64,000 nucleotides of DNA from Prolixibacteraceae bacterium (lineage in GTDB: Bacteria > Bacteroidota > Bacteroidia > Bacteroidales > Prolixibacteraceae). Below are positions 1,448-37,322 of this stretch, one piece after another; position 1 is the first letter of the stretch, and each line of letters starts with the position of its first letter. The notes beneath the pieces are model-generated. The model saw only the letters and a program-made list of their open reading frames with translations, had not been told where the DNA came from and ran no database searches. Location: contig JAQUIJ010000024.1 of assembly GCA_028683385.1 (NCBI GenBank), forward strand, positions 1-64,000. Reading direction: 5' to 3'. The position numbers and the translations under genes are program-made.

Positions 1448-1486
1448 GGGGGATTAGCTCAGTTGGCTAGAGCGTTTGACTGGCAG
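1448..1486 (+). pseudogene. tRNA-Ala(GGC) 5' half, interrupted at the attachment core
   Basis: Identical to the first 39 bases of the intact tRNA-Ala at 26414: acceptor GGGGGAT, D-arm and anticodon loop CTGGCAG. After 1486 the sequence is AACCGATC instead of TCAAAAGG, so the anticodon 3' strand, T-arm and acceptor 3' strand are missing. This is the left boundary of the integrated DNA. The missing half lies at 37277-37322. Confidence 0.9.
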
Positions 1487-1591
1487 AACCGATCATAATA
1501 TTTCCACCCAACTTCACTCCACTATCATTCACTACATTAAAGTTTCAGTTAGTTTTATTTTTCCTATACACTATACCCATTTATCCTTTCT

Positions 1592-1621
1592 CTGGCAGAT
1601 CTTCTGGCAATTTTTCTGGCA
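1592..1621 (+). repeat. Three CTGGCA repeats at exact 12-bp spacing (putative integrase arm sites)
   Basis: CTGGCA occurs at 1592, 1604 and 1616, about 106 bp inside the left end of element A. The same hexamer is in the att core (ACTGGCAG) and in the right-end repeat (26297, 26308, inverted 26327). That pattern suits arm-type integrase sites. The rest of 1487-1714 holds only a 10-bp inverted repeat (1625-1634 / 1667-1676). Confidence 0.45.
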
Positions 1622-1714
1622 AATTTTTTGAGACATAATTTATTGCTTAACCACATAATTTGCAAAGTCTCAAAAATTGAACAATGTTTTCGTTCTGGGA
1701 TGAATAATGGATAT

Positions 1715-3499
1715 TTATTTAAAATCAACGGAAATTTCAGTTACTGTTATTTCGTTTGACGTCCAATCTCCAGAACGAATGGCAATAAATTTAACTACGC
1801 CATTTACTTTAGAGGCTTTACAATAATCAGGGTTAATATTCGGAATTGTAAGATCTTTGTCTTTATATAATTCAAAGGTTCCTTTTTTGTTTTTCCAAAT
1901 AAAATTATGAAGTAATATACCTTTGCTTGGATTAGGATTCCACCAGACAGGGTCTATTCTAAATAGATTACCATAATGAAATGGATTTATGATAATATCT
2001 TCGAAGCCATCATCATCAACATCAATAACTTCAAATTCTCTAAATTGCATTTCGTTATTCGTAAATTCTAATTTTTGATTGGTTGGGACAAAGTTTCCTT
2101 GACCATCTTGCTTCCATATTTCAATTCCGGTATAATCATTTCCCTCAGTTGCAATAGCTAGATCCAAATCACCATCCCTGTCGAAATCAAAAGCTTTAAT
2201 TGAAGTGGCACCCCTATCAGGATTTGAAAACACACCAATAGATCCCGGATTTTTACTCATTTCATATTTACCTGATGTATTATTAAAGGAAAAAATAGCA
2301 ATACTATACCTGTCAGATAGTTGTTGATAGCTTGAATTAAAACCATAATCTGCTCTTATTATTTCTGGTCTTAAATCGCCAAATAAATCTTTCACAAGTA
2401 CTGCTCCTGCTCCATGATTACCCAGCCAATTTGATGTTGAAATTACATTTCTATTTTCACTAAATGAACCGTTACTATTTTGAATATAGGTATGTAAATT
2501 ATCATTTGTCCAGTCACTTTGAGTCCCCATGTGCAAACCAACGACATCAGTCAGTCCATCATTATTAATATCGCCAGTAGAAACAGAATGGTAGAAACTT
2601 TTAGACGTAGAAACTTGAGTCCAATTTATGTTATTGTTTTGAAATCGACCAAAATATAAATGACCAAACGGCCATGGATTACCATACTCTTTACCATGGT
2701 CAGCATAAGCAATTGAATTTCCTCCATCAGTAAATTCATAATTTCTAGCCTGACCCATGGTTGCTTCAGGATAAGCTGCGTTATACCTCCATGTATCATT
2801 TTCTTTTATTAATTGAATCAAGGGACAATTTTCTTCTTCATTATTTGACCCACTAAGTAATATGTATTCTTGATTATTGAATACATAAGAAGTCATCCCA
2901 CTTACATTATAAGATGCAGCTTGAATTTGTTTATTATTAATGCCCGGTATTTCAATTTTTACTTTATATGAAAGTACTTTATATTTAGATTTAAATTTTG
3001 CAGTAAATGACTTGGCCTTATCAATTGCAATAGTTATCGGGTTATCAGTTCCTTGATAATCACCGCTCCAACTAACAAATTCGGATCCAACATTTGGATT
3101 AGCAGTCAATTTTACCATAGTTCCCAAAGTATAATCTGATGCCGATTTTGTCAAAACCACTTCTTCTTTTATTGTACCATCTCCGTTGATAATTAGTGAG
3201 AGAGGATATTTCCTTTTTTCAAAGTTGGCAATAATATTTTTATTCGCCTTCATTGAGACTGTCATTGGGTTTGTAGTGCCAATTGCATCACCCGACCATC
3301 CGGTAAATATAAATTCAGATGATGGAGTAGCTGTAATTAAAGCACTTTCACCTTCTTTATATGATCCTGATTTTGGTGAAATAGTACCACCTTCTTCCGG
3401 CTGAGACATGGTTTTTAATTCATATTGAATGACAGGATCTTTAGCACAAGAGTTGATTAACACAATGAAAATGAAAAGTATGAAGATTTTATGGTTCAT
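1715..3499 (-). CDS. Surface lipoprotein with InlB B-repeats and FG-GAP/VCBS repeats
   Basis: 594 aa. The N-terminus is a hydrophobic signal with lipobox LINSC (Cys 18), so the protein is probably lipidated and displayed on the outer membrane. Two divergent InlB-type B-repeats follow, at about 30-95 and 95-170 (repeated GGTISPKSGSY/GWSGDA and GTIKEE/SWSGDY patterns). The rest holds FG-GAP/VCBS calcium-binding repeats (DINNDGLTD, DFDRDGDLDLA, DVDDDGFEDI) that predict a seven-bladed beta-propeller. The start ATG overlaps the stop of the preceding FG-GAP remnant (ATGA). Ligand unknown; adhesion or recognition is an inference. Cargo of element A, next to a second protein of the same kind. Confidence 0.8.
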   Translation of the reverse strand: MNHKIFILFIFIVLINSCAKDPVIQYELKTMSQPEEGGTISPKSGSYKEGESALITATPSSEFIFTGWSGDAIGTTNPMTVSMKANKNIIANFEKRKYPLSLIINGDGTIKEEVVLTKSASDYTLGTMVKLTANPNVGSEFVSWSGDYQGTDNPITIAIDKAKSFTAKFKSKYKVLSYKVKIEIPGINNKQIQAASYNVSGMTSYVFNNQEYILLSGSNNEEENCPLIQLIKENDTWRYNAAYPEATMGQARNYEFTDGGNSIAYADHGKEYGNPWPFGHLYFGRFQNNNINWTQVSTSKSFYHSVSTGDINNDGLTDVVGLHMGTQSDWTNDNLHTYIQNSNGSFSENRNVISTSNWLGNHGAGAVLVKDLFGDLRPEIIRADYGFNSSYQQLSDRYSIAIFSFNNTSGKYEMSKNPGSIGVFSNPDRGATSIKAFDFDRDGDLDLAIATEGNDYTGIEIWKQDGQGNFVPTNQKLEFTNNEMQFREFEVIDVDDDGFEDIIINPFHYGNLFRIDPVWWNPNPSKGILLHNFIWKNKKGTFELYKDKDLTIPNINPDYCKASKVNGVVKFIAIRSGDWTSNEITVTEISVDFK

Positions 3500-3666
3500 T
3501 GTAAGTTTAATTTATGTTTAAATATCCCATCATTAATTAATAAGTAAGGTCTATCGGTCGGACTCGTGAAAAAAACATCCAGATCCCCATCATTGTTAAT
3601 ATCACCAGAACAAACACCATGTCCAAACCATTTGTCATTTAAGAGGAGTTGTTCTATGAGAAGATT
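3496..3666 (-). pseudogene. Orphan FG-GAP repeat fragment between two surface-protein genes
   Basis: Between the stop of the upstream lipoprotein gene (3675) and the ATG at 3499, the minus strand holds an open frame with no ATG. It encodes a typical FG-GAP blade (GVCSGDINNDGDLDVFFTSP, then RPYLLINDG). Its TGA overlaps the next ATG as ATGA. It resembles the blade HHSGCSGDIDNDGDLDV in the upstream protein. It is probably the leftover C-terminus of a third related gene, trimmed by recombination. Confidence 0.65.
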
Positions 3667-3674
3667 TTACAACC

Positions 3675-5474
3675 TTACTTTTTAATAAATTTACTTCCAT
3701 TCCACTCCCATCTAGTGTTGGCTTTTCTATCACTACCGTAAATATCGATTCTTCCATTATGATCGAGATCTCTAAAAATCATGTGTCCGAAGCGTGGAAA
3801 GTAATCAGCAACATCAAAGAATTCATTTGTTTTTTTAACAAACGTTTTACCTTTATCATAAGATTGATAAAGATCTATAAAGTAAACCACTCCTGTTTGT
3901 GTACCCTCCCCTAATAATAAATCTGTCCCCGATAAAATTATTTCCGATATACCGTCATTATTAATATCTGTTAAGTCAATATCCATTATTGACCGATAGG
4001 TAGGGTAATCAAAGGATATAGAATTAGCTATATCAAAAGTCTTCCCATTTCCCCACATTATCACTATATTTTTTGTGCCAAGTTGATTGTTTATAAAACT
4101 AAATACCAGATCAAGAAACCCATCATTATTTACATCAAAAAGCTCTGAATGGTCGACTGGAGCATATTTACTAAATCCACTTTCTTGAAAAGTAAAATTG
4201 CCTTTTCCATCATTCCAAAGAATTTTACTTGTCACCCCATTGCCCCAATATCCAAAGTTAAACATTATAACATCTAGATCGCCATCATTATCAATATCAC
4301 CCGAACAACCACTATGATGAAATCCAAGCTGCTCTGGAAATTCTTTAACTGTTTTAAATCCTTCTTTTGAATTCAATATAAGGTGACTAACTTGATTTGT
4401 CCAGTCTACTCCATTAGGAACGTCAAATCCAACACAAGTGAAAATATCAGGTATTGAATCATTATTAAAATCACCAACCAAAAGCTTTGACCCATGGGGA
4501 CATAATATTGATGGGCCCGTCCAATCTATCTTTTCTAAAATAGAGTTATGATTCATGTATACACTTGGAGGTGTACTATTTGTTACCGTGCTTATATCAT
4601 AAGAATCGTAGTAAAATATATCCTCTAGTCCATCTCCATCAATATCAATTTGACAAAATTGTTGGTCAACCAATGGGTTAAAGTATGGATATTTAACTCC
4701 CTTATAATAATAATCATCCGAACTTAACCACATATCATAATTCGATAACTCATAGGAGGTCTTCAAATAATTCTTGTACACCCTGTTCCGTTTGGCTGGA
4801 AATGTCTTGGTTGAAGAATTTGTGGGATTTGCCTTTGATTTTGCATCGATGGTGATGGTATACGCTTTACTAATTGAAAATTTGCCCAATTGTAGAACAA
4901 CATTATTATTAACTGTTGTCGTATCAAGCTTAAACACAATCTGACTGTTATCATATTGAACCATCTTAACCGAGTAGGTTATTCCTGAGGAAGGTATTTT
5001 GCTTAAAACCTTCACCGTGAATGGCAATACTTCACTTTTGATATCAACATAGGCAGTACCGTTAAAAGGAGAGACTTCAAATTGGATACTCTCTTCCTTA
5101 GTGGTAGTGGTAACCTGATTCCCATATGATGTGCCAATACTATTGGTGGCATATGCTCTGAAGTAATAAGTTGCTCCAGATGAAAGACTGGTAATTGAAC
5201 TGGTGAAAGTTCCAATTCCAATACTAGCTATAGTTTTGTTATCTGTAATTGTTGGATTTTCTTTTGTGCTCCAGCAAACACCACATTCTGTTATCGGTGA
5301 ACCTCCATCTGATGTAATTACACCGCCGCAAGTTGCTGAATTTGGTGTAATGTCTGTTAGAACTGACGTTTCAATTGTCGGTGCAACCTTTGGAATTTCT
5401 TTCTTGCAACTGAATATGATTAAAAGAAAAATTCCGATGAATATAAAAAGTGATTTGGGGAGTTGATTTTTCAT
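3675..5474 (-). CDS. Surface lipoprotein with an Fn3-like domain and FG-GAP/VCBS repeats
   Basis: 599 aa from the ATG at 5474. That start is preferred over the TTG-type start ten codons upstream because it begins MKNQLPKSLF, followed by a signal and lipobox IIFSC. Residues of about 30-125 form the Fn3/Ig-like domain common in Bacteroidota surface proteins (TDITPNSATCGG ... YYFRAYATNSIGTSYG). The C-terminal two thirds carry FG-GAP repeats (DIDGDGLEDIFY, DFNNDSIPDIF, DIDNDGDLDVIMF, DVNNDGFLDLVFS, DINNDGISEI), predicting a beta-propeller. Probably outer-membrane anchored and outward facing. Partner unknown. Same architecture class as the neighbour at 1715-3499, but with a different N-terminal module. 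Confidence 0.8.
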   Translation of the reverse strand: MKNQLPKSLFIFIGIFLLIIFSCKKEIPKVAPTIETSVLTDITPNSATCGGVITSDGGSPITECGVCWSTKENPTITDNKTIASIGIGTFTSSITSLSSGATYYFRAYATNSIGTSYGNQVTTTTKEESIQFEVSPFNGTAYVDIKSEVLPFTVKVLSKIPSSGITYSVKMVQYDNSQIVFKLDTTTVNNNVVLQLGKFSISKAYTITIDAKSKANPTNSSTKTFPAKRNRVYKNYLKTSYELSNYDMWLSSDDYYYKGVKYPYFNPLVDQQFCQIDIDGDGLEDIFYYDSYDISTVTNSTPPSVYMNHNSILEKIDWTGPSILCPHGSKLLVGDFNNDSIPDIFTCVGFDVPNGVDWTNQVSHLILNSKEGFKTVKEFPEQLGFHHSGCSGDIDNDGDLDVIMFNFGYWGNGVTSKILWNDGKGNFTFQESGFSKYAPVDHSELFDVNNDGFLDLVFSFINNQLGTKNIVIMWGNGKTFDIANSISFDYPTYRSIMDIDLTDINNDGISEIILSGTDLLLGEGTQTGVVYFIDLYQSYDKGKTFVKKTNEFFDVADYFPRFGHMIFRDLDHNGRIDIYGSDRKANTRWEWNGSKFIKK

Positions 5475-5608
5475 TTTTAAGTAACAGATTGACCGATTAG
5501 CCACTAAAAATAGTTAATTCCTATTGACAAATATACTGATCGTTACTTTTATGTCTTTGATTTGTATTTTGAAAAAACAAAACACCCACACGAAATCGTA
5601 TAGGTGAT

Positions 5609-5625
5609 CAATTTAGTTTGGCTCA
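5609..5625. repeat. 17-bp inverted repeat flanking int-xis, left copy
   Basis: CAATTTAGTTTGGCTCA is the exact reverse complement of 7348-7364. The two copies bracket the integrase and excisionase genes. The left copy also forms a local hairpin (TTGGCTC-AAAG-GAGCCAA, 5618-5635) that could end integrase transcription. Confidence 0.7.
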
Positions 5626-5696
5626 AAGGAGCCAACCAATATATTTTGAAGACCGGAGAAGAAAGATCTCTCCAGTAGAATATCTGAATTCAAAAT

Positions 5697-6971
5697 TTAA
5701 GCTACTACCAATGGGTCATCAAATTCTTTGTCTTTCTTCCTTTTAACCAGCATATTGTTTACATCAAATGATTCAGGTATTGATAAACTATCGAGATAAT
5801 TCGATGTCGTACGGATATCTGAGTGTCCAAGAGAATCAGCGGTAAATTCACGGGAGATTTTATTTCTTTTTAAAGTCATTGCATAACAGTCCCGTGCCGT
5901 ACTCATCCTTAATGTAACTGATAAATTTAGCCGTTTCCCAATTTCTTTAAGTTCCGTATTAATTTCCTGACGAAACCTGTTTTTTCGATTATAAAGTGAA
6001 GTTTCTGTATATCCCTCATGTAATTTCCCTAAGACGAATTTGCTGGTTGGATCTCCTACCTTGTTCAGATAATACTTTAATTCTTCGGTCAACGGAATAG
6101 AAATTTCCTGAATGAAGTATTTTCTGGTTGTTTCTGTTTTGGTTCTAATCAAAGGGATATGATCAGTTGCGAAGCTATCCCAGCGAAGTTTTAATAGATC
6201 GATTTGATTGATTCCATTGCAATTATATAAAACGAGCCAAATATTTCGTGCATATTCCTGTTTTGGACTATCAAATTTGTCCATTTCAATCACTTTCTGA
6301 ATGTCATTCTCTGACATGACTCGTTTCTTTTTTCTTACGCATTTAATCGAATGGCCAGTCTTACCAAAGGGATAAATAAAATCAACAGGAAGCAATTTTT
6401 TCTCGTCCTTATAATAGTTTATAAGGGTTCTAAGATTTCGCAAGTATGACGAAACAGTAGAAATACTTTTACCTTTCCCAAGCATCTTCATTTCGAACTT
6501 TTTTAGAAATTTGGTATCTATTTCGTCAACATAAATACCTGGGGAAAATTGTTCAATAATATTCATGGAGCATTTAAAATGAATTTTTGTCGAAAGTTTG
6601 ATCTCAGCATTTTTTAGATAATATTCTGTCAGTTCTGTTAATGTAAGTGTTTTTGGTAGGTTGATATCATCTACAACCATACTTTCACCTTTGCCATAAA
6701 ACATCTGTTTAAATCGTTCGGGATCGAATCTTCTCATTGAACTGTAAATTCTTTCAGCTTTGGTTTCTAAATCGTTGAATTTTTCCCGTAGATCGATACA
6801 TTCTTTGGTATTTGCCATTTTTTTGAATACCAAATTGTGTTGTTCTTCGGTTAATTTATAATCCAATGGAAGATACCGGACTTTACCTTCAACCATTGTC
6901 CTGAGACAATACCGATGGGTTTTATCTTTATGCTTATATCGAGTATCGAGAATTACTTTAAATGTAGCCAT
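5697..6971 (-). CDS. int: Tyrosine recombinase (integrase) of element A
   Basis: 424 aa from the ATG at 6971 (MATFKVILDTRYKHKDK), preferred over the longer reading that starts inside the excisionase gene. The N-terminal arm-binding and SAM-like core-binding domains are typical of Bacteroidota phage-type integrases. In the catalytic domain the region that usually holds Arg I reads NGINQIDLLKLRW, as in the IntDOT-like branch. The later box reads STARDCYA (HxxR with Ser for His), then LGHSDIRTTSNYL with His and the nucleophile Tyr. It sits just downstream of an excisionase gene. It should recombine the TTGACTGGCAG cores in tRNA-Ala; assigning it to this site is an inference from position. Confidence 0.85.
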   Translation of the reverse strand: MATFKVILDTRYKHKDKTHRYCLRTMVEGKVRYLPLDYKLTEEQHNLVFKKMANTKECIDLREKFNDLETKAERIYSSMRRFDPERFKQMFYGKGESMVVDDINLPKTLTLTELTEYYLKNAEIKLSTKIHFKCSMNIIEQFSPGIYVDEIDTKFLKKFEMKMLGKGKSISTVSSYLRNLRTLINYYKDEKKLLPVDFIYPFGKTGHSIKCVRKKKRVMSENDIQKVIEMDKFDSPKQEYARNIWLVLYNCNGINQIDLLKLRWDSFATDHIPLIRTKTETTRKYFIQEISIPLTEELKYYLNKVGDPTSKFVLGKLHEGYTETSLYNRKNRFRQEINTELKEIGKRLNLSVTLRMSTARDCYAMTLKRNKISREFTADSLGHSDIRTTSNYLDSLSIPESFDVNNMLVKRKKDKEFDDPLVVA

Positions 6972-6975
6972 ATAC

Positions 6976-7194
6976 TTAATTTTTAAAGATTTTGAATTCA
7001 GGAACCTTACCAACCATTACACCATCGTTTCTAATCCATTCATCAATTTCATCCTTCAGGTAAAGTGTCCGACCACCTATTTTATGAAATGGTATTTCAT
7101 TGTTGCTTTTCTTCTTGTAGATAGTTGATTTCGATAAAGTGGTATACTCTGCGACACCATCGATATCCAGAATATTGTCATTCTTAATTTTCAT
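6976..7194 (-). CDS. xis: Excisionase-like helix-turn-helix protein
   Basis: 72 aa, of MerR/AlpA-like HTH_17 type. It has VAEYTTLSKSTIYKKKSNNEIPF followed by a beta-wing (KIGGRTLYLKDEIDEWI). It ends 4 bp before the integrase ATG, so the two are co-transcribed. Small proteins of this type beside a tyrosine recombinase usually direct excision or bind att arms. Confidence 0.8.
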   Translation of the reverse strand: MKIKNDNILDIDGVAEYTTLSKSTIYKKKSNNEIPFHKIGGRTLYLKDEIDEWIRNDGVMVGKVPEFKIFKN

Positions 7195-7347
7195 ACTTAT
7201 AAATTTTTTTTGTTTCTATTATTCAAAATATATCGGAAAAATTTGACAATAAAAAATTTTAATGCTAATTTAATGTTAATAATATGCTCGTATAGAGATA
7301 TATAGAGTCAACAAAAATTATGATCCATTTATTGATCAAAAAAAGGG

Positions 7348-7364
7348 TGAGCCAAACTAAATTG
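7348..7364. repeat. 17-bp inverted repeat flanking int-xis, right copy
   Basis: Exact reverse complement of 5609-5625. It lies about 155 bp upstream of the excisionase start, where it could also act as a regulatory site. Confidence 0.7.
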
Positions 7365-7820
7365 AGGATCTCCCGTCCCGGACCATCTATTTGCCCGGGG
7401 CTGCCGGGCTGGCCGTATCCCCTATTGCAATAACCATTTTTTAGTTCCTAGAATGGTCGTCAATGATCCGAGTGAAAAAATTTTGGGCTGGAAATTAAGT
7501 TGAGAACCACTTTTATAAAAATGACATTAAAAAAATTTTGGTCCATTTCTTATTAAATTAAGAACATCGATTTTGTGAGTTCTGGTGAGTTATTTCTGAA
7601 GGAATGATGTCTTTGTTTGTTTTTAAACGAAATTGTCCCAGAACTCACTGGATTAGGTCTGGTTATCATATTTACACATTATATGACCAAATCTATAAAA
7701 GGGGAGGGGTCCAGCGGAATTTGGGGTGGGGTTTTGGTGTTCTATTGGCTCATTAATTCGTCTGCGACGAAACGGTTGGGATTACTTTTTTTCAAATGGT
7801 AGAGCAAAATAACTCACTAA

Positions 7821-8000
7821 CGTTCGGGTTGGAATCTCATTTTATTTCTAAATCAATTAATTTTACCCAGTATAGAGGCCCAGCATCTGGTCCCAACATT
7901 CTCACTTCGTTCGGGTTGGGTGCTTAAAACTTTGTTTATTTTTAAACTTAGAATTAAGCAAATTAGCAGTTAACTGGCCTCTCAGCATTGCGTTCGGTTG
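7821..8000 (+). repeat. Three spaced direct repeats CGTTCGGGTTGG
   Basis: Copies at 7821-7832, 7908-7919 and a shortened one at 7991-8000 (CGTTCGGTTG), with 80-88 bp spacing. They sit immediately downstream of the DUF6291 gene. Function unknown. Confidence 0.5.
7934..7947. repeat. Palindrome GTTTA-TTTT-TAAAC
   Basis: Five-bp arms of the element A palindrome family. The outer C/G of the 16-bp form are both T here. Lies between the DUF6291 gene and the excisionase. Confidence 0.55.
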
Positions 8001-8016
8001 AGTGATTATTATTTTA

Positions 8017-8577
8017 TTAGGAAAATTTACGCTGCTTATTATATTCAAACATTGACATCCCGCCGTAATGTTTTGAATTATTAGAAGATAATCCAGCATT
8101 AACTGGAATTTCTGTTTTATTTTCACTTTTGGATTTTTCTGTTTCCATTTGTTTGTTTCCTGTTTCCAGTTTACCTTTCTCATTTAACTCTTCTCTATTT
8201 TCATTTATCTTTTTTCTATTCTCTATTTCCATTTTACTATTATCATTTATCTGTTCTCTTTTATCAGGTTGTTTGGTTTGTTCTGGGTTGATTTGGGTTG
8301 TTTTTTCTTTGCTAGCATTCTGGTTCCCCTTCGGTGCTCCACCAAGTTTGCCGTTTTCTCGATTAGCCTGAACCCTTTTTTCATATTTATCCTGATTTGC
8401 TTCAAGACCTGGCAAGATCCCATTCCAAGCCAGTCTATCAATCTTTGTTGGAAGATCGATTTCCTCTCCTGAATGATATTTTATCAGATTGTGAATAAAT
8501 CTTCTCAATTCAATGTCGTCTAAATCATCTATCTGGTCTTTCCAGTTCAGATAGAATAAAAATGCTTTCTGTTCCAT
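8017..8577 (-). CDS. DUF6291 domain-containing protein
   Basis: 186 aa. Residues 1-75 match the DUF6291 pattern (AFLFYLNWKDQIDDLDDIELRRFIHNLIKYHSG ... in short, a helical domain common in phage and mobile-element proteins). A GKLGGAPKGN hinge follows, then a charged low-complexity stretch rich in Glu, Asn and Lys (about 88-160) that is likely disordered. The end is HYGGMSMFEYNK. DUF6291 proteins often sit in phage replication regions, so a replication role is possible but not shown. Next to the repeat region 7195-8016. Confidence 0.65.
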   Translation of the reverse strand: MEQKAFLFYLNWKDQIDDLDDIELRRFIHNLIKYHSGEEIDLPTKIDRLAWNGILPGLEANQDKYEKRVQANRENGKLGGAPKGNQNASKEKTTQINPEQTKQPDKREQINDNSKMEIENRKKINENREELNEKGKLETGNKQMETEKSKSENKTEIPVNAGLSSNNSKHYGGMSMFEYNKQRKFS

Positions 8578-8597
8578 AGTGTATTATTAAAAAAGTA

Positions 8598-8646
8598 AAC
8601 CCCAATTGAATCCGCGAGGGGCATCACGAATTTCAATTGAGGTTTT
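8598..8646 (-). terminator. Terminator of the ParB-methyltransferase gene
   Basis: Inverted repeat AAACCCCAATTGAA / TTCAATTGAGGTTT, 13 pairs with one mismatch and a 21-nt loop. Read on the minus strand it is followed by TTTACTTTTTT. It lies about 140 bp after the stop of the gene at 8783-10435. Confidence 0.6.
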
Positions 8647-8782
8647 TAAATTTTTTTAATGTGATATATGTTTGCCCCATCACTTTAATATAATATAAGG
8701 TTAAAACGGAAATAAGTAAATAGTAAATTCTATGGTAACAGATATTCTTTAACCAAATACCTGTTCCCGAATGAATAAACAG

Positions 8783-10435: not shown

Positions 10436-10558
10436 GTTGAATAATTTTTAGAATTAAATTCAACACGAAGGTTCGGAGAATTAATATGATTATGTTTAAT
10501 AAGTAAACTTACAATATTTGATGTAAGTTTCGGTATAAGTTCGTAAGGTTACGAAATC

Positions 10559-11632: not shown

Positions 11633-11690
11633 AAATAAAAGTCTTGGTTTTCACCAAAAGTATTTATTACCGGAGAAATCAGCAATAATT

Positions 11691-27882: not shown

Positions 27883-27912
27883 CGTATTAAGGCTTATATT
27901 CTTATTATTTGT

Positions 27913-28911: not shown

Positions 28912-28968
28912 AGTTTGATTAGTTTAAATTTACCTGTATGTTATTTCCCTTTCGGTAAAAAAGTCAAA

Positions 28969-29694: not shown

Positions 29695-29702
29695 GGATTA
29701 GT

Positions 29703-30224
29703 TTATTTTAGTAGTTTTTCCTTTTCTGCCTTATATTCTTCTTCCGTCAAAGCCCCAGAATCAAATAGTTCTTTTAATTTTTTGAGTTCATCAAACTTTG
29801 ATGTTTGATTTACAACCGTTACCGGAATTGCATCTTTTTTACAATCTGCTATTTCACAAGTTTTTATAGCATCCTCTATCATTAAATTATAATTTGTAAT
29901 ATTTCCACCAGCAACAACAAAAACAACAGATTCAGCACCTTTAAATTTAAATGACCTAATTTTTCTAACAATAACATTTAATCCAGAATATGATCGACCT
30001 ATATTAAATTGATTTGATCCACTATTTGAATTGTAAGACATAGCAGCACCCCAGCCACCCATTTGAAGGTACAGAAAGTCGCCATTTGTTGCCGATCCAC
30101 GTCCTAACTTAATTGTATCGCCAACGTGGTAAACAATGCCATTAGATGCCTTATAACTGTCTAATTTCTGAGAATAAGACACAAAAGAGAAAAACACAAA
30201 AAGAATGGAAATTAACTTTTTCAT
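29703..30224 (-). CDS. Exported protein with a C-terminal SHOCT motif
   Basis: 173 aa from the ATG at 30224 (MKKLISILFVFFSFVSYSQK, signal peptide). The 42 extra codons upstream lie in a hairpin-rich region and are probably not translated. The middle is a small beta domain (IKLGRGSATNGDFLYLQMGGWG). The end is a SHOCT helix pair (FDELKKLKELFDSGALTEEE), often found at the C-terminus of oligomerising envelope proteins. First gene of the four-gene cargo run; the FISUMP gene follows after 8 bp. Confidence 0.7.
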   Translation of the reverse strand: MKKLISILFVFFSFVSYSQKLDSYKASNGIVYHVGDTIKLGRGSATNGDFLYLQMGGWGAAMSYNSNSGSNQFNIGRSYSGLNVIVRKIRSFKFKGAESVVFVVAGGNITNYNLMIEDAIKTCEIADCKKDAIPVTVVNQTSKFDELKKLKELFDSGALTEEEYKAEKEKLLK

Positions 30225-30251
30225 AATTAGGATATTAAGAGTTATACCTTC

Positions 30252-30367
30252 CGGGTTCAAAAAGGAATGTTTATAAATAAAAAAGGTGTGAACCCGTGCT
30301 AAACCGCTAAGGTATCGCCAAACACCCCAAAGACTTAGACACAAGAACACACCAATCCCGGTGTGTT
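30252..30367. repeat. Two hairpins upstream of the SHOCT gene
   Basis: CGGGTTCA (30252-30259) pairs with TGAACCCG (30289-30296). AACACACC-AATCCC-GGTGTGTT forms a second 8-bp hairpin at 30346-30367. They lie in the probable 5' leader of the cargo operon and may be regulatory. Confidence 0.45.
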
Positions 30368-30554
30368 ACTACATGCTTCGTCTTTGTTAATAATTTGGCG
30401 ATTTTAAGCGATGAAACTTAGCAACACTTTATTTCTTTCAGTATTTTGTATAAAAATAAACTTTAAATTCTACAAAACCATAATCAGGTTTGCTAAAATC
30501 ATTTGGGTTATCAAAAATGGCAGGTTAAAACAACAACTAAAGACTTAATTGGCA

Positions 30555-30850
30555 TTTATACACACGTGTAAGGAATTCAGTTTTCAACGATTTTTTTGAG
30601 CCTTACACACGTGCAATAAAATTTGAATGACTTATTTCCGATTTAATACACGTGCAAGGCAAAACAACAATATTCCGCCCCTTATACACGTGTAGGGGTT
30701 ATCCAATATTCTAACATTATTATACACGTGCAGGTGGAATAAACAATAAACCGCTATTCCAACACTATACACGTGTAGGAATAAACGTTATTCTACCCCT
30801 ATACATGTATGTAATGACAATATTCTATTACTATGCACGGGTATAAGGAT
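30555..30850. repeat. Iteron-like array of eight CACGTG-centred repeats
   Basis: Units of the form TATACACGTGYAGG, with CACGTG starting at 30563, 30608, 30649, 30687, 30725 and 30770, plus degenerate copies at 30804 (CATGTA) and 30836 (CACGGG). Spacing is 32-45 bp. Spacers share AATATTC and flanking CCCC/GGGG runs. It is the clearest structure in the 1.2-kb non-coding region 30225-31461. Short direct repeats of this kind next to replication-type genes suggest a replication origin (iterons) or a repressor array. Not CRISPR: the repeats are too short and the spacers too similar. Confidence 0.7.
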
Positions 30851-31147
30851 AATACCCCCGGGTAGCCCCAAAAAACAAAAGTTCAATATCAAAAGTCTGA
30901 TTTTGATATATAGTTTTTCCACTAAAATAGGCTAATGGCATTTTTACGCCAATGGCCTTTTATTGCTTAATGTCAATAAATCTTCTTGCTCAAACGTTGC
31001 AATAGTTCAAATTTGTGCCATTTTAAGGCTTTACGGGCATAATTAATGCAATAATGTAGTGTTTTGTGTGTTTCTCTTCAAAATAAACCAGCGGCTTTAT
31101 TTGGTGATTTATTGAATTGAAAAAAATCATTCGATTTATGAGTGTAA

Positions 31148-31167
31148 CCCGATTTTTTTAAATCGGG
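31148..31167. repeat. Hairpin CCCGATTT-TTTT-AAATCGGG
   Basis: Perfect 8-bp stem in the non-coding region downstream of the gene at 31462-32181. On that strand it could act as a terminator, although a T-run directly after is lacking. Confidence 0.4.
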
Positions 31168-31461
31168 AACATAAATATACTTAATTTCTATTTTTTCTTT
31201 TCTAAAAATCTTTCTAAAAATGTTTATTATAATACCTTTATATAGGTCGTGTATTTGTAGAAAAAAATATGAAGGAAATAAAAGGGTAAAAAAACAAATG
31301 TTCAAAACTCCTTATTAAAGGTCGTGTGATGGTCTTGTGATTGTATTGTTGACATTCAATGCTTTATACATATCTTAATTGCTTGTTGAACACTTGTTTG
31401 AAATTTATTTGAACACTTGTTCAATAATTTATTACGAGGTATCGAAGGAGCTTACAAGGGG

Positions 31462-32181
31462 CTAAGAAGTGGCTTCTTTCAATCCGGCCAACACCTGTTT
31501 GACAATCTCCTTTTCGTGTTGTCTGTATTGCTTTTCTTTGGTTGACTTCCGCCGGGTTTCTGCCTCTAATATCAACGCTGGCAAATCCAATGTGAACGAC
31601 ACATAAAACCCTCTTGTATAACGGCTGTATGTTACCAGTTTCCAACCTTCACGAAGAGCGGTTTTTATCTTGACCGTTTGATAGTCGTTTGCGTATTTCT
31701 TAACACCCTCTGATAGTTTGTTAACATCCTTAATAGCTTTGGCATTTCCAGACATCCGCGCCCACAAAAAGGAATTATCTGTCTTGCAGTAGGGCTTTGT
31801 TCCTAAAATTGATTTAATGGCTAAAAAAGCAGCTAAACAGGCTATTTCAAACTCTGATTTGTCATTTTTGTAGTAATCCCAGAAAATAGAAATATTCAAG
31901 CCAACTTTAGGGGTATCGGTTGGTATGCTCTCAAATAAGGCTTTGCCCTGTTTTAATTTATTCTTTTTGTTCTGATCATTTCCGCCTAAATCAACATTGT
32001 AGAATTTTGCGGCTGTTGTGAACTTGTTAAATTCAGAATTACTATAAAGGTCTTCAGCATCCATTTTTAAGGAATGAGAATACAGGGCAAAATAAAGAAT
32101 GTCATTTAACACCTTTTGCTTATCCTCAAAAAGTTCCTTCAAAAGAGTTACCGGAAAATTGAAATATTTAACGTCACTCAT
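31462..32181 (-). CDS. Hypothetical protein of element B, possibly replication-associated
   Basis: 239 aa, soluble, no named domain recognised. It begins MSDVKYFNFPVTLLKELF and has a strongly basic C-terminus (ETRRKSTKEKQYRQHEKEIVKQVLAGL). Its ATG overlaps the stop codon of the VRR-NUC remnant (ATGA), so both belonged to one operon with the polymerase-like gene. It lies between that operon and the iteron-like array, so a DNA-binding or replication role is possible by position only. Confidence 0.5.
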   Translation of the reverse strand: MSDVKYFNFPVTLLKELFEDKQKVLNDILYFALYSHSLKMDAEDLYSNSEFNKFTTAAKFYNVDLGGNDQNKKNKLKQGKALFESIPTDTPKVGLNISIFWDYYKNDKSEFEIACLAAFLAIKSILGTKPYCKTDNSFLWARMSGNAKAIKDVNKLSEGVKKYANDYQTVKIKTALREGWKLVTYSRYTRGFYVSFTLDLPALILEAETRRKSTKEKQYRQHEKEIVKQVLAGLKEATS

Positions 32182-32465
32182 GGTTTAAATATTAAATTGC
32201 ACCGATTCAAAAACTGTTCAAACGATGAGGCAGTCACGTATATCCCTCCGACCTGTTCAATTGATTTTTGATATAACTTTTGCGCTTCGCTCAGCCGGTC
32301 ACGTCCTATTTTAACTTCAATCTTTACTGATCGTCCGGTAATGGTGGCCGATATATCAGCCGTTCCGTTTTGTTCCTGTTCCTTTTATCCAATGTGAGCC
32401 GCCATTGCTGGCTGGCAACCTATGACTTCTGTTCCGTCCTTGGTTTTAAATTTGGTAATTTTAAG
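32178..32465 (-). pseudogene. VRR-NUC nuclease remnant
   Basis: The minus strand reads NGTADISATITGRSVKIEVK, then IGRDRLSEAQKLYQK and GGIYVTASSFEQFLN, the VRR-NUC (virus-type replication-repair nuclease) pattern with the D ... EVK catalytic residues. A TAA at 32385-32387 interrupts the frame right after AAHIG, and no ATG precedes the nuclease part. Upstream in the same frame is KITKFKTKDGTEVIG. The gene appears inactivated by a nonsense change, or is read from a non-standard start. Its TGA overlaps the next ATG. Confidence 0.6.
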
Positions 32466-33009
32466 TGGAGAAACATGGCAGCACAAATTTTTCAATATTT
32501 TGCATAAAAGTAAAAATTAATCAGGGAATGTTTGCTATATAAATTTTAATTATTAATTCGAGCAGTCAAAACGATACGCGCACGTGCGCGAGTATTGTTA
32601 GCAAATTAAACTTAAATCAGTTGTAAAAATTCAAAACCACGCACTAAAAAATAGGAATGCTGACGAAGGTTTTAATACGGTCAATAGAAACTTTATAAGT
32701 ACGCGCGTATTGATTACTTAATTTAGACGGAATACCGAAAAACTTAACAAAACTACACATTACTTCAAAATCCCAGAACCTGACAAAACTTTACATTCTG
32801 CTAAGAAATGCTAAGTTCTATAAAATATCAAAACCTCATAAAACCTGACATATTCCTAAAAAATCCTAAGTATTGACCAAAAGCGAAAACCTAACAAATT
32901 ATCATTTTCAAAAAAAATCATTTTCATTATTTTGTTGATTAATTGATATTTACAAGGTAATGGGCAGGATATTAGTTAGAGATTGTACGCCCCTCCTTTC
33001 CCTTCATTT
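32466..33009. other. Non-coding AT-rich region with a CACGTG palindrome and short repeats
   Basis: Holds the perfect palindrome CGCGCACGTGCGCG (32577-32590), a second CGCGCG patch near 32701, and two similar 20-mers at 32741-32760 and 32777-32796 (AACYTRACAAAACTWYACAT). A-rich tracts follow towards 32950. The CACGTG centre matches the iteron-like array at 30.6 kb. Possible second origin or control site. Confidence 0.4.
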
Positions 33010-34296
33010 CTATTCTATAATACCTTCAATTTTAATATTTGGTGCAAATCCAACAAAAAAAGTCAGTTCTTCAATCATTATTTTGCATACGGCTTCAACA
33101 TTGTTTGTCAATACACCAGTCATAATGCTATCATGTACGGTTATCGCAATCGTGCCGGGCAACTCTTTATATATACGTTTCAGGATAACATCTAACATTA
33201 AATAACTTTCAATTCGTTGCAGTAGGATTGCGAATCTTTTAAAATTTGTGAATTTGTCGCCTTTTTCTGAACCTCTAATTTTAGAGAATATCCTGTGAAC
33301 CGTTGGAAACCTATTTTTAAAAATCAGTCTTGCTTTCCGGTTTATTTCATCCTTTGGTATCCTATTTCGGGCAAAAAGTATCCTTAAAACCTGCACTTTT
33401 GTTTCATTCCTTGTTAGCTCCAGACCTTCTTTTAAAAATTCAGTCATCAAATATTCATATATCTGACCTGAATTGACTAATAAAACATATTTACTAACAT
33501 CCTGATTTAATGTTACTTTTAAGGATTTCAACAACAAGGCAAAAGCAGGGTTTTTAGTTAAATGTGAAACCTTTCCGGGATTGGTCAATAGTACTGTTGA
33601 TAAATATGGCTGTGAATTTTTAATGTCAAGATTTACCAACGGGTCACCAATGATTCTCAAAAATGGTCTTAATCCTTTAGCCATGTTCGTAACGTTAGAA
33701 TGAAACCGTCCAGAAGTACTATCAACTTTATATGAAATATTGCCGTTCATTATTCTGGTAGCTGAAGCAATAAGATAATTGTATTTATCTGTTCCAACGA
33801 TATAATTAGCCTCAATAAACGCAAAACAACTGGGGTCAATTGTTAAGAGCTTTAAATATTTTACCTGTCCTGAATGTCCCCAAATTGATTTTGCAATCTC
33901 TTTTCTAGCCTTGGTTTGTGCCATCTCAATCCGGCGAATCAATTTTGCATTGTTCAATGGCATTGAAATATATCTACTTTGATATTTATCTGTAAAACAG
34001 TATTGATAACTGCTTTGCCCCTTTATTGCATGGCCTGAACGCTGAATAATATTTAGGACAATAAGTGCCAATAGATATTTGTCGCCATGTACAACCAGCT
34101 TTCTAATGTATGTCATTTGAAGCTGTGAAGATCCCTTATCTTTTCGGGTATGGCAGGCAACTATTGATATAATTTCTTTCAGGTTATCCGTTGAATATCC
34201 TTTTATTTTAGGTCTTATTAAATCTTCAATAGTTGTAAAATTCTGCAATACTTTCTCTGGGATCAACTGGTAATATTTGTGTTCCCCGGTTTTCAT
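33010..34296 (-). CDS. Divergent family-A DNA polymerase-like protein
   Basis: 428 aa with no exonuclease domain. The C-terminal 240 residues carry the landmarks of a PolA palm. Motif A-like LVNLDIKNSQPYLS is at about 221 (compare DYSQIELR), preceded by GRFHSNVTNMAKGLR. A fingers-type RNETKVQVLRILF is at 296 and LLQRIESYLMLDVI at 358 (compare the Q-x-x-A-A helix). Motif C-like ITVHDS is at 385 (compare VHDE). Family knowledge suggests a template-directed polymerase; activity is not established. Probably element replication. The gene is coupled to a short upstream ORF through TAATG and to the HTH gene. A G6 run may allow an N-terminal extension. Confidence 0.65.
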   Translation of the reverse strand: MKTGEHKYYQLIPEKVLQNFTTIEDLIRPKIKGYSTDNLKEIISIVACHTRKDKGSSQLQMTYIRKLVVHGDKYLLALIVLNIIQRSGHAIKGQSSYQYCFTDKYQSRYISMPLNNAKLIRRIEMAQTKARKEIAKSIWGHSGQVKYLKLLTIDPSCFAFIEANYIVGTDKYNYLIASATRIMNGNISYKVDSTSGRFHSNVTNMAKGLRPFLRIIGDPLVNLDIKNSQPYLSTVLLTNPGKVSHLTKNPAFALLLKSLKVTLNQDVSKYVLLVNSGQIYEYLMTEFLKEGLELTRNETKVQVLRILFARNRIPKDEINRKARLIFKNRFPTVHRIFSKIRGSEKGDKFTNFKRFAILLQRIESYLMLDVILKRIYKELPGTIAITVHDSIMTGVLTNNVEAVCKIMIEELTFFVGFAPNIKIEGIIE

Positions 34297-34370
34297 TAAA
34301 AGCCTGGGATTGTCAATTGTCCCCCCTCAACAAATTCAGGAAAATTCAGAAGTGCAAATTCTTTTTTCAT
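34296..34370 (-). CDS. 24-codon ORF between the HTH and polymerase-like genes
   Basis: MKKEFALLNFPEFVEGG then QLTIPGF and TAA. Its ATG overlaps the HTH stop (ATGA) and its stop overlaps the polymerase ATG (TAATG). One more G in its G6 run (34321-34326) would fuse it in frame to the polymerase as EGGTIDNPRLLMKTGEH. It is either a coupling peptide, or the true N-terminus of the polymerase hidden by a one-base indel. Confidence 0.45.
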   Translation of the reverse strand: MKKEFALLNFPEFVEGGQLTIPGF

Positions 34371-34696
34371 TTGCTCCGGCCTCCTTTCCTCATTGCATTA
34401 GCCGCCATTTCATGGGCTGTTTGCCTCTGGCCTGAATTAAGATACTCATCTAAGTCAGTGGTCAAAAAACTCAGTTTCTTGCCTGCTTTTGAATTTCTAA
34501 TTTTTCGTTGAGATACAAGCCCGTAAAGAGTTGGCAGGGCAATGTTTAAATACTTGGCGGCTTCCGGTGCTGATTTCCGTTCGATCACTTCAGGTTTAGT
34601 ACTTACCAACTGAAGCAAGACGGTTTCCATTCTTTCCAGTTTTTTGTTCAGTTCTGTAACTGCTCCCGGTAATTGTTCAAATGTCAATGTTTGCAT
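34367..34696 (-). CDS. Excisionase-like helix-turn-helix protein of element B
   Basis: 109 aa. A short coiled-coil start (LNKKLERMETVLLQLV) precedes an HTH_17/MerR-like domain (APEAAKYLNIALPTLYGLVSQRKI, then the wing KKLSFLTTDLDEYL). The C-terminus is basic (NAMRKGGRSK). Such proteins near Bacteroidota integrases act as excisionases or as regulators of replication genes. It heads the operon HTH - 24-codon ORF - polymerase. Confidence 0.75.
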   Translation of the reverse strand: MQTLTFEQLPGAVTELNKKLERMETVLLQLVSTKPEVIERKSAPEAAKYLNIALPTLYGLVSQRKIRNSKAGKKLSFLTTDLDEYLNSGQRQTAHEMAANAMRKGGRSK

Positions 34697-34797
34697 AATA
34701 ACTTAATTTTATTGTTACTATGCAAATTTCTATATTACATTCTGCTATATCATTGAATGTCAGTTGCTTGAAATTGTTTAGCAACTTTCAACAACTT

Positions 34798-35844
34798 TTA
34801 TTCATGATTTTCAATTGATTTTTTGGCTTGTTCAAATGTTGATCGTAAATGGCAATAGTCTTGGTCGTCTTCATCATGGAAAACAAAACCACTGCCAGAC
34901 TTGTCAACTATGTTTTTGTTGATACCAAAGAAATTATTATTTGTTGGCAATGGTTCGTTTATGAAGGAATACCATGACAAATAAAAGTCAGTCCGTTTTT
35001 TGTTTGGTATAAGTACAATTCCAGATTCTGAAAGCAAACAAAGCATAATAGCATAATCTTTAGGGCTACTATTCCGATTAAAAATTGTTTTGCAAATTTC
35101 GGCTAATTCCTTCGGCAATGAATGGTTCAAATGTGAATGAAATGGCGCAATAACTTTTTCACCCTTTTGTTGAAGTGAAGTTTTATGTTGATTTGTTTTA
35201 TGTTGTGAATACGAAATTTTGTTATGGTTATAAAATTCTGCCTCCCTTTGTATTATTTTATCTTGGGTTTCACTCCATATTTTAACAGCATTGATATGTG
35301 TCTGGGGGATTCCATCAGAATATAATCCAGATTCATAATTTACACGGTAATTAAGTATGCTTTTGCAAAACTCATTATACACGCATTGTTTGAAATCAAA
35401 GCCAAATACATTTTTCAAATATTCCAGCCAATGACTAACATTATCAAGATACATAGGAATGTATGGTATTTTGAGCGGGTTTGGTGTATAGTGTTTTTCA
35501 TTACGAACACTTATCTCATTGAACATTTTTACTTTCTCAGTAAAAGCACTCGCAAATATTGCAGAAAAAGTATTTGCCGCCTTTCTGACCTCCGTAGTGT
35601 CTTTAATATTAAAAATAAGAGCTACTCCGTTTCCCTCCTTTGTTTTTATCATATCGCTTTCTCCAAAAATAATTAAGGCCTTAGTGCGCTCCTTGTCTTT
35701 GAATAATGCTATATGCCCCCCTGTTTTCTCATCAATAGGAAAATGATTTTGGTCTTTATTTCCTTCCCATGCAAAATATAAAGATGGTATAATAGTTAGC
35801 TCATATCTGCCTTCTCCAATTTCTTTTACTTTATCAATTTTCAT
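34798..35844 (-). CDS. Hypothetical protein of element B
   Basis: 348 aa, soluble, no family recognised. Residues 1-110 look beta-rich (GRYELTIIPSLYFAWEG, THIALFKD-type strands). The middle has a Gln/His/Lys-rich linker (SYSQHKTNQHKTSLQQKGEK) and the C-terminus is acidic (DEDDQDY). It sits 12 bp upstream of the integrase stop, in the same direction and probably in the same transcript. Confidence 0.5.
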   Translation of the reverse strand: MKIDKVKEIGEGRYELTIIPSLYFAWEGNKDQNHFPIDEKTGGHIALFKDKERTKALIIFGESDMIKTKEGNGVALIFNIKDTTEVRKAANTFSAIFASAFTEKVKMFNEISVRNEKHYTPNPLKIPYIPMYLDNVSHWLEYLKNVFGFDFKQCVYNEFCKSILNYRVNYESGLYSDGIPQTHINAVKIWSETQDKIIQREAEFYNHNKISYSQHKTNQHKTSLQQKGEKVIAPFHSHLNHSLPKELAEICKTIFNRNSSPKDYAIMLCLLSESGIVLIPNKKRTDFYLSWYSFINEPLPTNNNFFGINKNIVDKSGSGFVFHDEDDQDYCHLRSTFEQAKKSIENHE

Positions 35845-35856
35845 TGTCTTTTATTT

Positions 35857-37113
35857 TTAAAATTCAGTTAATAAGTTAGTTGCCTTTTGTTTTGTGTCAA
35901 AATCAATCTTTTGGGCATAATTCAGGGTTGTTTTGCTGTCGGTATGTCCTAACTGTTGGCGCAAAAATTCAATGCTTATCCCGGCTCTTAATAGCTTTGA
36001 AGTATATGAGTGCCGGGCAACATACGTTGTCAATTTTGCATCAATACCAACTTTTGCAGCTACTTTTTTAATGTATTTATTAATCTGCCAAACGGCCTGT
36101 TCTTTTACTTTATGCTGTTTGTCTGCTGTCATTTCTTTATTCAGGAATGGAAATATAAAGTTATCGGACTGAACTGGCTTTGTTCCCCATCGGTCAATAA
36201 TTTGTTTTGCTATCGGTGTTAAAATGGCCTCAATCTCTGTTCTTTGTTTTGTCGTATGTTCCGTTTTTGCACGAACAAAGATTATTGATTCACCTTGAAT
36301 ATTTGAATATTTCAGCCTTAGAATGTCTTTTATATTTAGGCCGTTGCATAAGTAACTGAATAGCCAAAGATCAAAAAAATAGTGTTCTGGGCTTCCTGCT
36401 TTTGGTTGGTATTCAAACAGTTTTTTTAGTTCCTCATTCGATAAAGCTTTTTTTATACTGTTTGATGTTGGTATCTCATATTTTCCAACTCCGAAAGGAT
36501 AGGCATTTGATTTGATAACATTGGTCTTAACGGCGGTATTCATTAAGGCTCTTACATTGCGCAAATACATTCCTATTGTTGTAGCCGTCTTACCTTCAGA
36601 CCTCATCCATTTGTCGTATTCATTCAGATAGTTGACTGTAATCTTTTTAAATTGTAAGGTGTCAACCTCATCAGTTTTCTTTAAATTCAATTGATACTTT
36701 TCAAATTCCTGTAACGATTTCTTTGCATATTCATAGCCAATTGCAGTACCTATTCTTCCAGATTCTTTTTTTTGCACAACTATTGCATCAAAAGCATTAA
36801 TTATATTGGTCATATCTCCCCGCTTTTCGAGGAATATATTTTCAAATTCATCAAAGTTAAATTCCTCAATACCAGATATTACCTCATCTGCATTTACCTT
36901 GATTTTATCTAAAGCGGCTTTAATGTTCCTTAGCTTTTCCGATCTAAAATTCTTAGATGTAATTGTCTCATAATCATCTTCATTTAAAGCATACTTTGTG
37001 CCATATTTTTTATACCTTTGGTCATAAGTTACACGGACTTTTACAGGATAAGTACCATTGTTCTTTTCTCTTCTGGTATCTAAAATAATGGCTGTTGTGG
37101 CTTTTAGTTTCAT
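35857..37113 (-). CDS. int: Tyrosine recombinase (integrase) of element B
   Basis: 418 aa from the ATG at 37113 (MKLKATTAIILDTRREKNNG), preferred because the 16 upstream codons overlap the 26-bp arm repeat. It has the arm-binding beta domain, SAM-like core-binding domain and catalytic domain of Bacteroidota integrases: NGLNIKDILRLKY, then TTYVARHSYTSKLLRAG and LGHTDSKTTLNYAQK with His and the nucleophile Tyr. The start is only 164 bp from the att core in the displaced tRNA half. Distinct in sequence from the element A integrase, although both elements share the same core. Confidence 0.9.
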   Translation of the reverse strand: MKLKATTAIILDTRREKNNGTYPVKVRVTYDQRYKKYGTKYALNEDDYETITSKNFRSEKLRNIKAALDKIKVNADEVISGIEEFNFDEFENIFLEKRGDMTNIINAFDAIVVQKKESGRIGTAIGYEYAKKSLQEFEKYQLNLKKTDEVDTLQFKKITVNYLNEYDKWMRSEGKTATTIGMYLRNVRALMNTAVKTNVIKSNAYPFGVGKYEIPTSNSIKKALSNEELKKLFEYQPKAGSPEHYFFDLWLFSYLCNGLNIKDILRLKYSNIQGESIIFVRAKTEHTTKQRTEIEAILTPIAKQIIDRWGTKPVQSDNFIFPFLNKEMTADKQHKVKEQAVWQINKYIKKVAAKVGIDAKLTTYVARHSYTSKLLRAGISIEFLRQQLGHTDSKTTLNYAQKIDFDTKQKATNLLTEF

Positions 37114-37140
37114 GATTATTCCTATTAAAATGTGCAAAAA

Positions 37141-37166
37141 TATTTGAACATTAATTTGCACAACTA
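37141..37166 (+). repeat. 26-bp direct repeat of element B, right copy
   Basis: Identical to 26531-26556; lies between the integrase start and the right att core. Putative arm-type site. Confidence 0.75.
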
Positions 37167-37276
37167 AGATACGAATTAATACGAAATATCAATTAACAAC
37201 CATTAGTATATTTTGTGTTATTTCCTGATTATATTATCTTTACGAAGTTTCAATAATATACAATTGAGTTAATTTG

Positions 37277-37322
37277 TTGACTGGCAGTCAAAAGGTCATC
37301 GGTTCGATTCCGATATTCTCCA
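37277..37322 (+). pseudogene. Displaced 3' half of tRNA-Ala(GGC)
   Basis: TTGACTGGCAG core followed by TCAAAAGGTCATCGG, the T-arm and ATTCTCC-A, identical to the intact tRNA from 26442 onwards. The 5' half is missing here and lies at 1448-1486. This is the right boundary of the integrated DNA. Confidence 0.92.

Follow-up and report, generated by a model that had tools for sequence, protein, structure and literature searches.

The only tRNA gene in the window (the whole stretch of 64,000 nt that was analysed), a tRNA-Ala(GGC) gene at 26414-26488, is very probably shared by two separate tyrosine-integrase elements that sit in tandem and have opposite polarity. Judged from the sequence, element A is best read as a rare 5'-type element whose predicted attP bears arm sites, a tRNA promoter and a tRNA 5' half, and element B as an element that follows the usual 3'-type pattern. 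The locus contains the following tRNA sequences and repeats.

1302..1486, plus strand: displaced left copy of an upstream block (arm-type sites, tRNA promoter region and 5' half), 185-bp repeat
1448..1486, plus strand: displaced 5' half of tRNA-Ala(GGC), an exact copy whose 3' limit is the crossover CTGGCAG (1480-1486)
26268..26452, plus strand: right copy of the upstream block, the present front of the living tRNA gene (promoter and 5' half), with CTGGCA at 26297 and 26308 and inverted CTGGCA at 26327
26414..26488, plus strand: intact tRNA-Ala(GGC) (ARAGORN)
37277..37324, plus strand: displaced tRNA-Ala 3' half followed by terminator-like sequence, 48-bp repeat

ARAGORN and the two repeats bore out the original prediction that tRNA-Ala halves flank an intact copy. 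The 5' half is an exact copy, as predicted, but the true repeat there is, at 185 bp, much longer than had been noted. The two copies of this repeat (1302-1486 and 26268-26452) are 98% identical, with mismatches only at 1311, 1312 and 1415 and a longest exact run of 102 bp, and the 48-bp repeat (26442-26489 and 37277-37324) is 100% identical; these lengths are far beyond what chance could account for. The promoter region of the living gene falls inside the 185-bp repeat. The tRNA halves read on through both junctions, with the fragments in the same orientation as the intact gene, and the 5' fragment at 1448-1486 lies upstream of the intact gene, as in 5'-fragment islands. A whole-genome pattern search with the 20 nt around the anticodon, allowing up to 3 mismatches, returned three matches, two of them being the intact gene on its two strands and the third the 3' relic, and thus no second intact gene of this tRNA-Ala sequence was found by this search.

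Each island contains a tyrosine-family integrase gene (Pfam Phage_integrase). Element A was delimited from its junctions, its repeats and its homologue in a related genome, G001.

1487..26452: element A, 5'-type, 24,966 bp
1592..1621, plus strand: CTGGCA triplet with 12 bp spacing just inside the left end of A, putative P' arm
5697..7013, minus strand: A tyrosine integrase, 438 aa (Pfam Phage_integrase, E 1.9e-9, and a SAM-like domain)
13117..20135, minus strand: defence-like cargo of A (PADLOC)
13117-14601 and 14634-16745, minus strand: type IIG-like methyltransferase in this cargo, two adjacent ORFs (PADLOC)
16749-20135, minus strand: HKD+Snf2-type helicase in this cargo (PADLOC)
21967..22905, plus strand: candidate defence protein of A, PDC-S11-like (PADLOC, E 8.3e-120)

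CTGGCA clusters are confined to the two block copies and the left end of A. The triplet at this end occurs at an equal distance in G001, and these were the only two such left ends among 48 sequences scanned. Two observations speak against the favoured reading: the integrase gene lies 4.2 kb from the left end of A with two FG-GAP-type genes between, compared with 0.3 kb in G001, and the nearest other relative of this integrase with a mapped site is 40% identical and is a 3'-type integrase in tRNA-Met. When the cargo was searched with NCBIfam, all helicase matches fell below the curated cut-off.

Element B was delimited from the 48-bp repeat and its own integrase.

26453..37287: element B, 3'-type, 10,835 bp
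26531..26556, plus strand: left copy of the B end repeat, putative arm site, 3' of a terminator-like hairpin
34367..34696, minus strand: HTH_17 protein (Pfam, E 6.3e-9)
35857..37161, minus strand: B tyrosine integrase, 434 aa, roughly 0.1 kb inside the right junction (Pfam Phage_int_SAM_5 and Phage_integrase)
37141..37166, plus strand: right copy of the B end repeat, putative arm site

The 26-bp end repeats of B are perfect copies. From its size and place, the HTH_17 protein is possibly an excisionase, which is a guess. Each integrase thus has its own end-specific repeats, in support of the original prediction's suggestion of two tandem elements with different integrases and one core.

We infer circles, excision, activity and expression alike. 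Strand exchange by both integrases would span the seven bases of the anticodon loop, CTGGCAG, with the anticodon stem (TTTGA/TCAAA) as the inverted core. In the circle of A, the core would be flanked on one side by arm sites, the tRNA promoter and the 5' half, and on its other side by three arm sites with the integrase region beyond them. Entry of A would displace the resident 5' half leftward and equip the gene with a fresh promoter and 5' half. The circle of B would carry a 3' half, a terminator and arm repeats, and its entry would displace the resident 3' half rightward. Because A would bring a new 5' half and B a new 3' half, the living gene would be a chimera with its front from A and its back from B, and an intact gene should remain after the loss of either element. 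The term "rescue copy" used in the original prediction is therefore loose; on the two-element reading A and B would carry one half each and neither a whole tRNA. Both orders of arrival yield the same map, so the order cannot be read from it. Each of these steps belongs to a known type, with the front-half type rare and the two-sided layout unusual.

Pfam searches of ORFs from A and B recognised no transfer or phage structural genes, and several ORFs were without a match; ncbifam and phrogs profile searches covered 10 ORFs each. A type IX secretion sorting domain, together with a single match at 25% identity from a Bacteroidetes MAG in a scan of genome contigs, suggests that the host belongs to the Bacteroidota. 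No relatives of either integrase were found in viral contigs, and relatives on plasmids were weak and partial (37 records, all below 60% identity and none spanning 80% of the A integrase). Classical tyrosine integrases have Arg in box I. In an alignment of the 14 full-length sequences out of 17 integrase matches (three short pieces were left out), Asn occupied the corresponding position in 14 of 14.

Relatives of the locus show A-type and B-type features apart. In G001, on a single contig, about 0.3 kb separates an A-type integrase with 61% identity from a displaced 5' half, the intact tRNA is 7 kb to the right of this relic, and arm sites stand at distances matching those of A. This genome has one 5' relic and, on the opposite side, three 3' relics that begin at the anticodon loop and whose integrases were identified only in part. 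The left end of B recurs in G009, and integrases 35% identical to that of B adjoin 3' relics in G013 and G017. We compared relatives whose locus is empty or holds one element, as the original prediction had proposed: in G010 the tRNA stands without an insert, with hflX on one side and the DUF5916 and hexokinase genes on the other, and G009, G013 and G017 have B-type features with no A-like integrase better than E 1e-28. The same right flank resumes in the window.

49967..53978, plus strand: continuation of the right flank, with two genes behind about 70 bp of intergenic DNA
50038-52668, plus strand: DUF5916 gene (Pfam, gene order)
52776-53978, plus strand: hexokinase gene (Pfam, gene order)

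The intergenic sequence is 85% identical over 75 bp to G013 and 79% over 53 bp to G010. In G009, G017, G018 and G019 a permease gene, not DUF5916/hexokinase, lies downstream of the tRNA; since this neighbour varies within the genus, the term "native right flank" is valid for one group of genomes only. We also searched 140 genomes of the family for the 5' half, allowing up to 2 mismatches, and inspected the single-match genomes in part. The pattern matched in 108 genomes and more than once in 7, among which only this genome and G001 had a 5' relic. Both matches in G013 continue into the 3' part and apparently represent one tRNA on two contig ends; all matches in G046, G079, G087 and G106 likewise continue into the 3' part (shortened in one G106 copy), and these five were rejected as further 5'-type cases.

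The original prediction had offered a second possibility, one composite element of 35.8 kb with the outer halves as its borders and a tRNA-Ala copy of its own. Such an element would hold a whole replacement gene, in the style of tRNA-dependent lysogeny. An intact gene could be obtained from the outer halves alone, and an intact copy does lie inside. However, each of the two integrases has a separate pair of end repeats, A-type ends lie beside an A-like integrase in G001 while B-type features occur separately in G009, G013 and G017, and the gene is rebuilt at every junction, so that a whole replacement copy would be unneeded. We found no support for a composite element and consider it very unlikely. 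It may also be asked whether separate loci were misjoined at repeats during assembly, as the start of this contig is a repeat common to eight other contig ends, which share about 124-137 bp with it. These overlaps suggest an assembly word size near 127, which would suffice to resolve the 185-bp repeat. All three copies lie inside one contig, and their exact runs, at most 102 bp, are below the contig overlap. An artefact is unlikely because single-contig G001 has the same kind of arrangement; the assembly error that the original prediction allowed for was not upheld, and we regard a misjoin as extremely improbable.

The displaced half at 1448 probably does not belong to the host itself, in which case 1302-1486 would be the right-hand end of another A-type element that lies past the start of the contig. 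We draw this from contig C19 of this assembly, which has the host's left flank: asd-hflX lies at its end, as in most relatives showing this flank, together with a separate copy of the upstream block, and 276 bp of C19 are 82% identical to the sequence flanking the G001 5' relic. Neither asd nor hflX was found in window positions 1-1300. The idea that recombination between the outer cores would restore the host's native gene, part of the original prediction, is accordingly unsupported. The same mechanism could have operated with a single A-type element if the half at 1448 were the host's own and C19 lay elsewhere or the chromosome had been rearranged. In favour of this, the contig begins at window position 1 with nothing readable to its left, the C19 block is without promoter and 5' half, and over 81 bp C19 shows 96% identity to both block copies in the window compared with 82% to its positional counterpart in G001, such that the copies may have been homogenised. 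Given the content of C19 and of positions 1-1300, we think a host-derived half rather unlikely, and prefer the further A-type element.

In 10 of 18 genomes the arm-site block precedes the living gene. Its identity between this genome and G013 or G017 (93% and 89%) is higher than that of hflX coding DNA (82% and 79%), in line with lateral replacement of the gene front; between this genome and G001 there is no such excess (93% vs 91%), and the block is partly constrained tRNA and promoter sequence, which speaks against such replacement. It is conceivable, if doubtful, that the promoter and 5' half of tRNA-Ala(GGC) travel with A-type elements in this genus, the block being an element end left behind or re-imported, with the front of the gene repeatedly replaced laterally and its back by 3'-type elements. 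A further, decayed 5' half was sought in 20 stretches, almost all of them lying upstream of block or gene, with 60 single-base shuffles each. Scores exceeded all shuffles in G014 (17 vs 14) and G004 (16 vs 13), both with short or poor matches, G019 was tied (14 vs 14), and 17 stretches scored below shuffles. No older 5' relic was found in these stretches, and the block as a scar has no direct support. Upstream of the gene in G009 there is a pseudo copy that has 9 mismatches.

Both 5'-fragment islands and tandem islands are already known, and the two-sided chimeric array would be a variant of these. Islander lists 159 of 3919 islands with a 5' fragment and 3760 with a 3' fragment, and 125 tandem arrays of at least two islands, 4 of them of at least three (PMC4383910). 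Its 5'-fragment islands (PMC4383910) resemble A in their tyrosine integrase, anticodon-centred crossover and 5' fragment upstream of an intact gene; here, in contrast, a 5'-type and a 3'-type element adjoin each other back to back at one gene and the promoter/arm block can be traced in a relative. Its tandem islands likewise share one tRNA gene, each with an integrase and a fragment, whereas opposite kinds of fragment lie on opposite sides here. The pTN3-like archaeal integrases also attach in the tRNA 5' half and sever the rebuilt gene from its original promoter; there the integrase promoter is reported to drive the rebuilt tRNA and the integrase gene is split (PMC8371274, PMC5495485), whereas here the block would bring a tRNA-type promoter along and leave the integrase gene whole. 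In tRNA-dependent lysogeny integration likewise takes place at a host tRNA gene that has to stay functional, but a complete phage tRNA replaces the broken gene (PMC10865867); here the halves rebuild the gene at each junction, and no junction that leaves the tRNA unrebuilt, with a whole tRNA carried, was seen. The accessible part of PMC9897764 added nothing decisive. Within the portions of the literature our search reached, no two-sided 5'/3' array at one tRNA gene was found, which is not proof of its absence from print.

In most tRNA islands it is the back of the gene that is replaced, with the host promoter still in control. A front-replacer and a back-replacer at a single crossover let both polarities be compared in a natural setting at one gene, and the 40% identical 3'-type relative of the A integrase in tRNA-Met opens a change of polarity within one integrase family to direct study. 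Where the outermost tRNA halves are taken as the borders of one island, the resulting map would be wrong.

The intact tRNA-Ala(GGC) gene at 26414-26488 is the single intact copy in the window, which forms the first part of contig C46 in a draft genome of 5.9 Mb. Its displaced halves (relics) lie on either side, the 5' half ending at 1486 and the 3' half starting at 37277. The 5' repeat is 185 bp long (98% identity) and includes the promoter region, and the 3' repeat is 48 bp long (100%). At the left junction, sequence is shared up to and including CTGGCAG and diverges after it, and among the three 3' relics of G001, a genome from the same genus assembled as one contig, two start exactly at CTGGCAG and one at a mutated form. 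Because these boundaries agree, the shared crossover would most simply be the seven-base anticodon loop, between the stem sequences TTTGA and TCAAA. The first 124-137 bases of the window (1-127) also occur at eight further contig ends in the assembly; the contig therefore breaks at a long repeat.

Element A (1487-26452) comprises 24,966 bp between two copies of the 185-bp block and has one tyrosine integrase (5697-7013). CTGGCA occurs 49 times on the two strands of the 64 kb, and at least three copies fall within 80 bp at only three places:

1331, 1342 and 1361: CTGGCA cluster in the left block copy
26297, 26308 and 26327: CTGGCA cluster in the right block copy
1592, 1604 and 1616: CTGGCA cluster just inside the left end of A

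The block copies of this putative arm site lie at -145, -134 and -115 (the last one inverted) relative to the core, and the left-end sites lie 105, 117 and 129 bp inward of the left junction. In G001, an integrase 61% identical to that of A lies about 0.3 kb to the right of a displaced 5' half, from which it is 7 kb rightward to the intact tRNA. Its left-end arm sites are at 105, 117 and 128 bp and those of its right block copy at -145, -134 and -115; the left block copy is partly decayed. Across 48 sequences, the triple site (at most one mismatch, spacing 11-13) was found only at the left ends of A and of the G001 element, and such a pattern would be expected of a conserved attP. Of the 23 genus genomes, only G001 and G000, the genome of the window, yielded an integrase matching that of A at E 1e-100 or below.

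Two FG-GAP-type genes separate the left end of A from its integrase, and the G001 element differs here. FG-GAP-type proteins are encoded at both ends of A (1715-5504 and 23827-25893); an InlB-like repeat domain is present in one of them and a secretion-tail domain in another. The cargo of A looks defensive:

HKD+Snf2-type helicase
14634-16745 and 13117-14601: type IIG-like restriction-methyltransferase, two adjacent ORFs
second methyltransferase with a ParB-like front part
PDC-S11-like protein

The helicase had no NCBIfam match that passed its cut-off. The two ORFs of the type IIG-like pair (13117-16745 together) match distinct parts of the family, and the gene may be split or broken.

The integrase of element B (26453-37287) is separate from that of A and is encoded at 35857-37161, roughly 0.1 kb away from the right junction. 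A perfect 26-bp repeat is present near both ends of B. Its left end consists of the 3' half, a terminator-like hairpin and a putative arm repeat, and this left end is found again downstream of the intact tRNA in G009, a relative. In two further relatives, G013 and G017, integrases 35% identical to that of B adjoin 3' relics. A candidate HipA-like protein (judged by eye) and an HTH protein follow the intact tRNA in these two genomes (loci L083, 11472-13132, and L081), and in G001 (L070, 11757-12728) a HipA_C protein is encoded in the interval separating two 3' relics.

Among the loci examined in the 23 genomes of the genus, 3' relics (no more than 6 mismatches in 42) were present in 10 genomes and 5' relics in 2 (G000 and G001), with further partial matches standing outside this count. 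In G001 a single 5' relic on the left and three 3' relics on the right are spread over about 100 kb. Family-wide, among 140 genomes, the 7 with more than one match yielded no more 5' relics. tRNA-like pseudo copies, in which another hairpin-like sequence replaces the anticodon arm, immediately precede the intact tRNA in G009 (L095, near 10173) and G019 (L098).

The insert-free locus of G010 reads hflX, a small gene, the tRNA, a DUF5916 gene and a hexokinase gene, the last two named from Pfam assignments of the window's copies. The DUF5916/hexokinase neighbours are common to the window, G004, G010, G011 and the relic locus of G013, and G007 shares the hexokinase neighbour; a permease-like gene takes their place in G009, G017 (relic locus), G018 and G019. 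The right flank is therefore of two kinds. In the window it resumes at about 49967 (85% identity with G013 across 75 bp and 79% with G010 across 53 bp), so 37325-49966 is also extra DNA. These 12.6 kb, from the 3' relic to the resumed flank, encode a lactate permease, an FAD-linked oxidase and two-component genes; at E 1e-50 the lactate permease was found in the window's own genome but not in any of the remaining 22 from the genus.

The asd and hflX genes that belong to this genome are located close to the end of another contig, C19. Because of this, and because different DNA, in which neither gene was found, stands to the left of the window's left block, we think that 1302-1486 is the right end of a further A-type element lying beyond the contig start. 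After hflX, 276 bp of C19 match the flank left of the G001 5' relic (82%), arm-site block included; the C19 block lacks the promoter and the 5' half. Over 81 bp C19 is 96% identical to both window copies but only 82% identical to the G001 counterpart. The block copies could instead have been homogenised, which counts against a further element.

Of the 18 genomes for which at least 330 bp of upstream sequence was available, 10 have paired arm sites (allowing one mismatch in 12) upstream of the living tRNA; both displaced copies, C19 and a 64-bp row of G013 were left out of this count. Block identity exceeds that of hflX coding DNA between G000 and G013 (93% against 82%) and G017 (89% against 79%), with no real excess for G001 (93% against 91%). 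The difference is only suggestive, since the tRNA and promoter part of the block will be constrained. No convincing older, decayed 5' half was seen in 20 stretches.

The individual parts of this arrangement are already known. Islander reports a 3' fragment in 3760 islands and a 5' fragment in 159, with 125 tandems of at least two islands and 4 of at least three (PMC4383910); among archaeal integrases, the pTN3-like ones use the 5' tRNA half (PMC8371274; PMC5495485); and bacterial tRNA genes rebuilt by integration are described in a review as using the original promoter, with very few exceptions (PMC8371274). The rare 5' polarity beside the common 3' polarity at one gene is thus a variant, of which we found no case in the literature searched.

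Integrases related to that of A also accompany 3' relics. One in another genus of the family (G060; 32% identity) adjoins a 3' relic (4 mismatches) of the same tRNA, and another integrase of G001 (40%) lies in a 3'-type element within tRNA-Met(CAT) (C1, about 2442589), where the relic (L140, 11197-11239) starts at the anticodon loop as well. We infer that, with an anticodon stem that is nearly palindromic, a single integrase family may be able to use either tRNA half, and that the 5' choice would require a promoter carried by the element.
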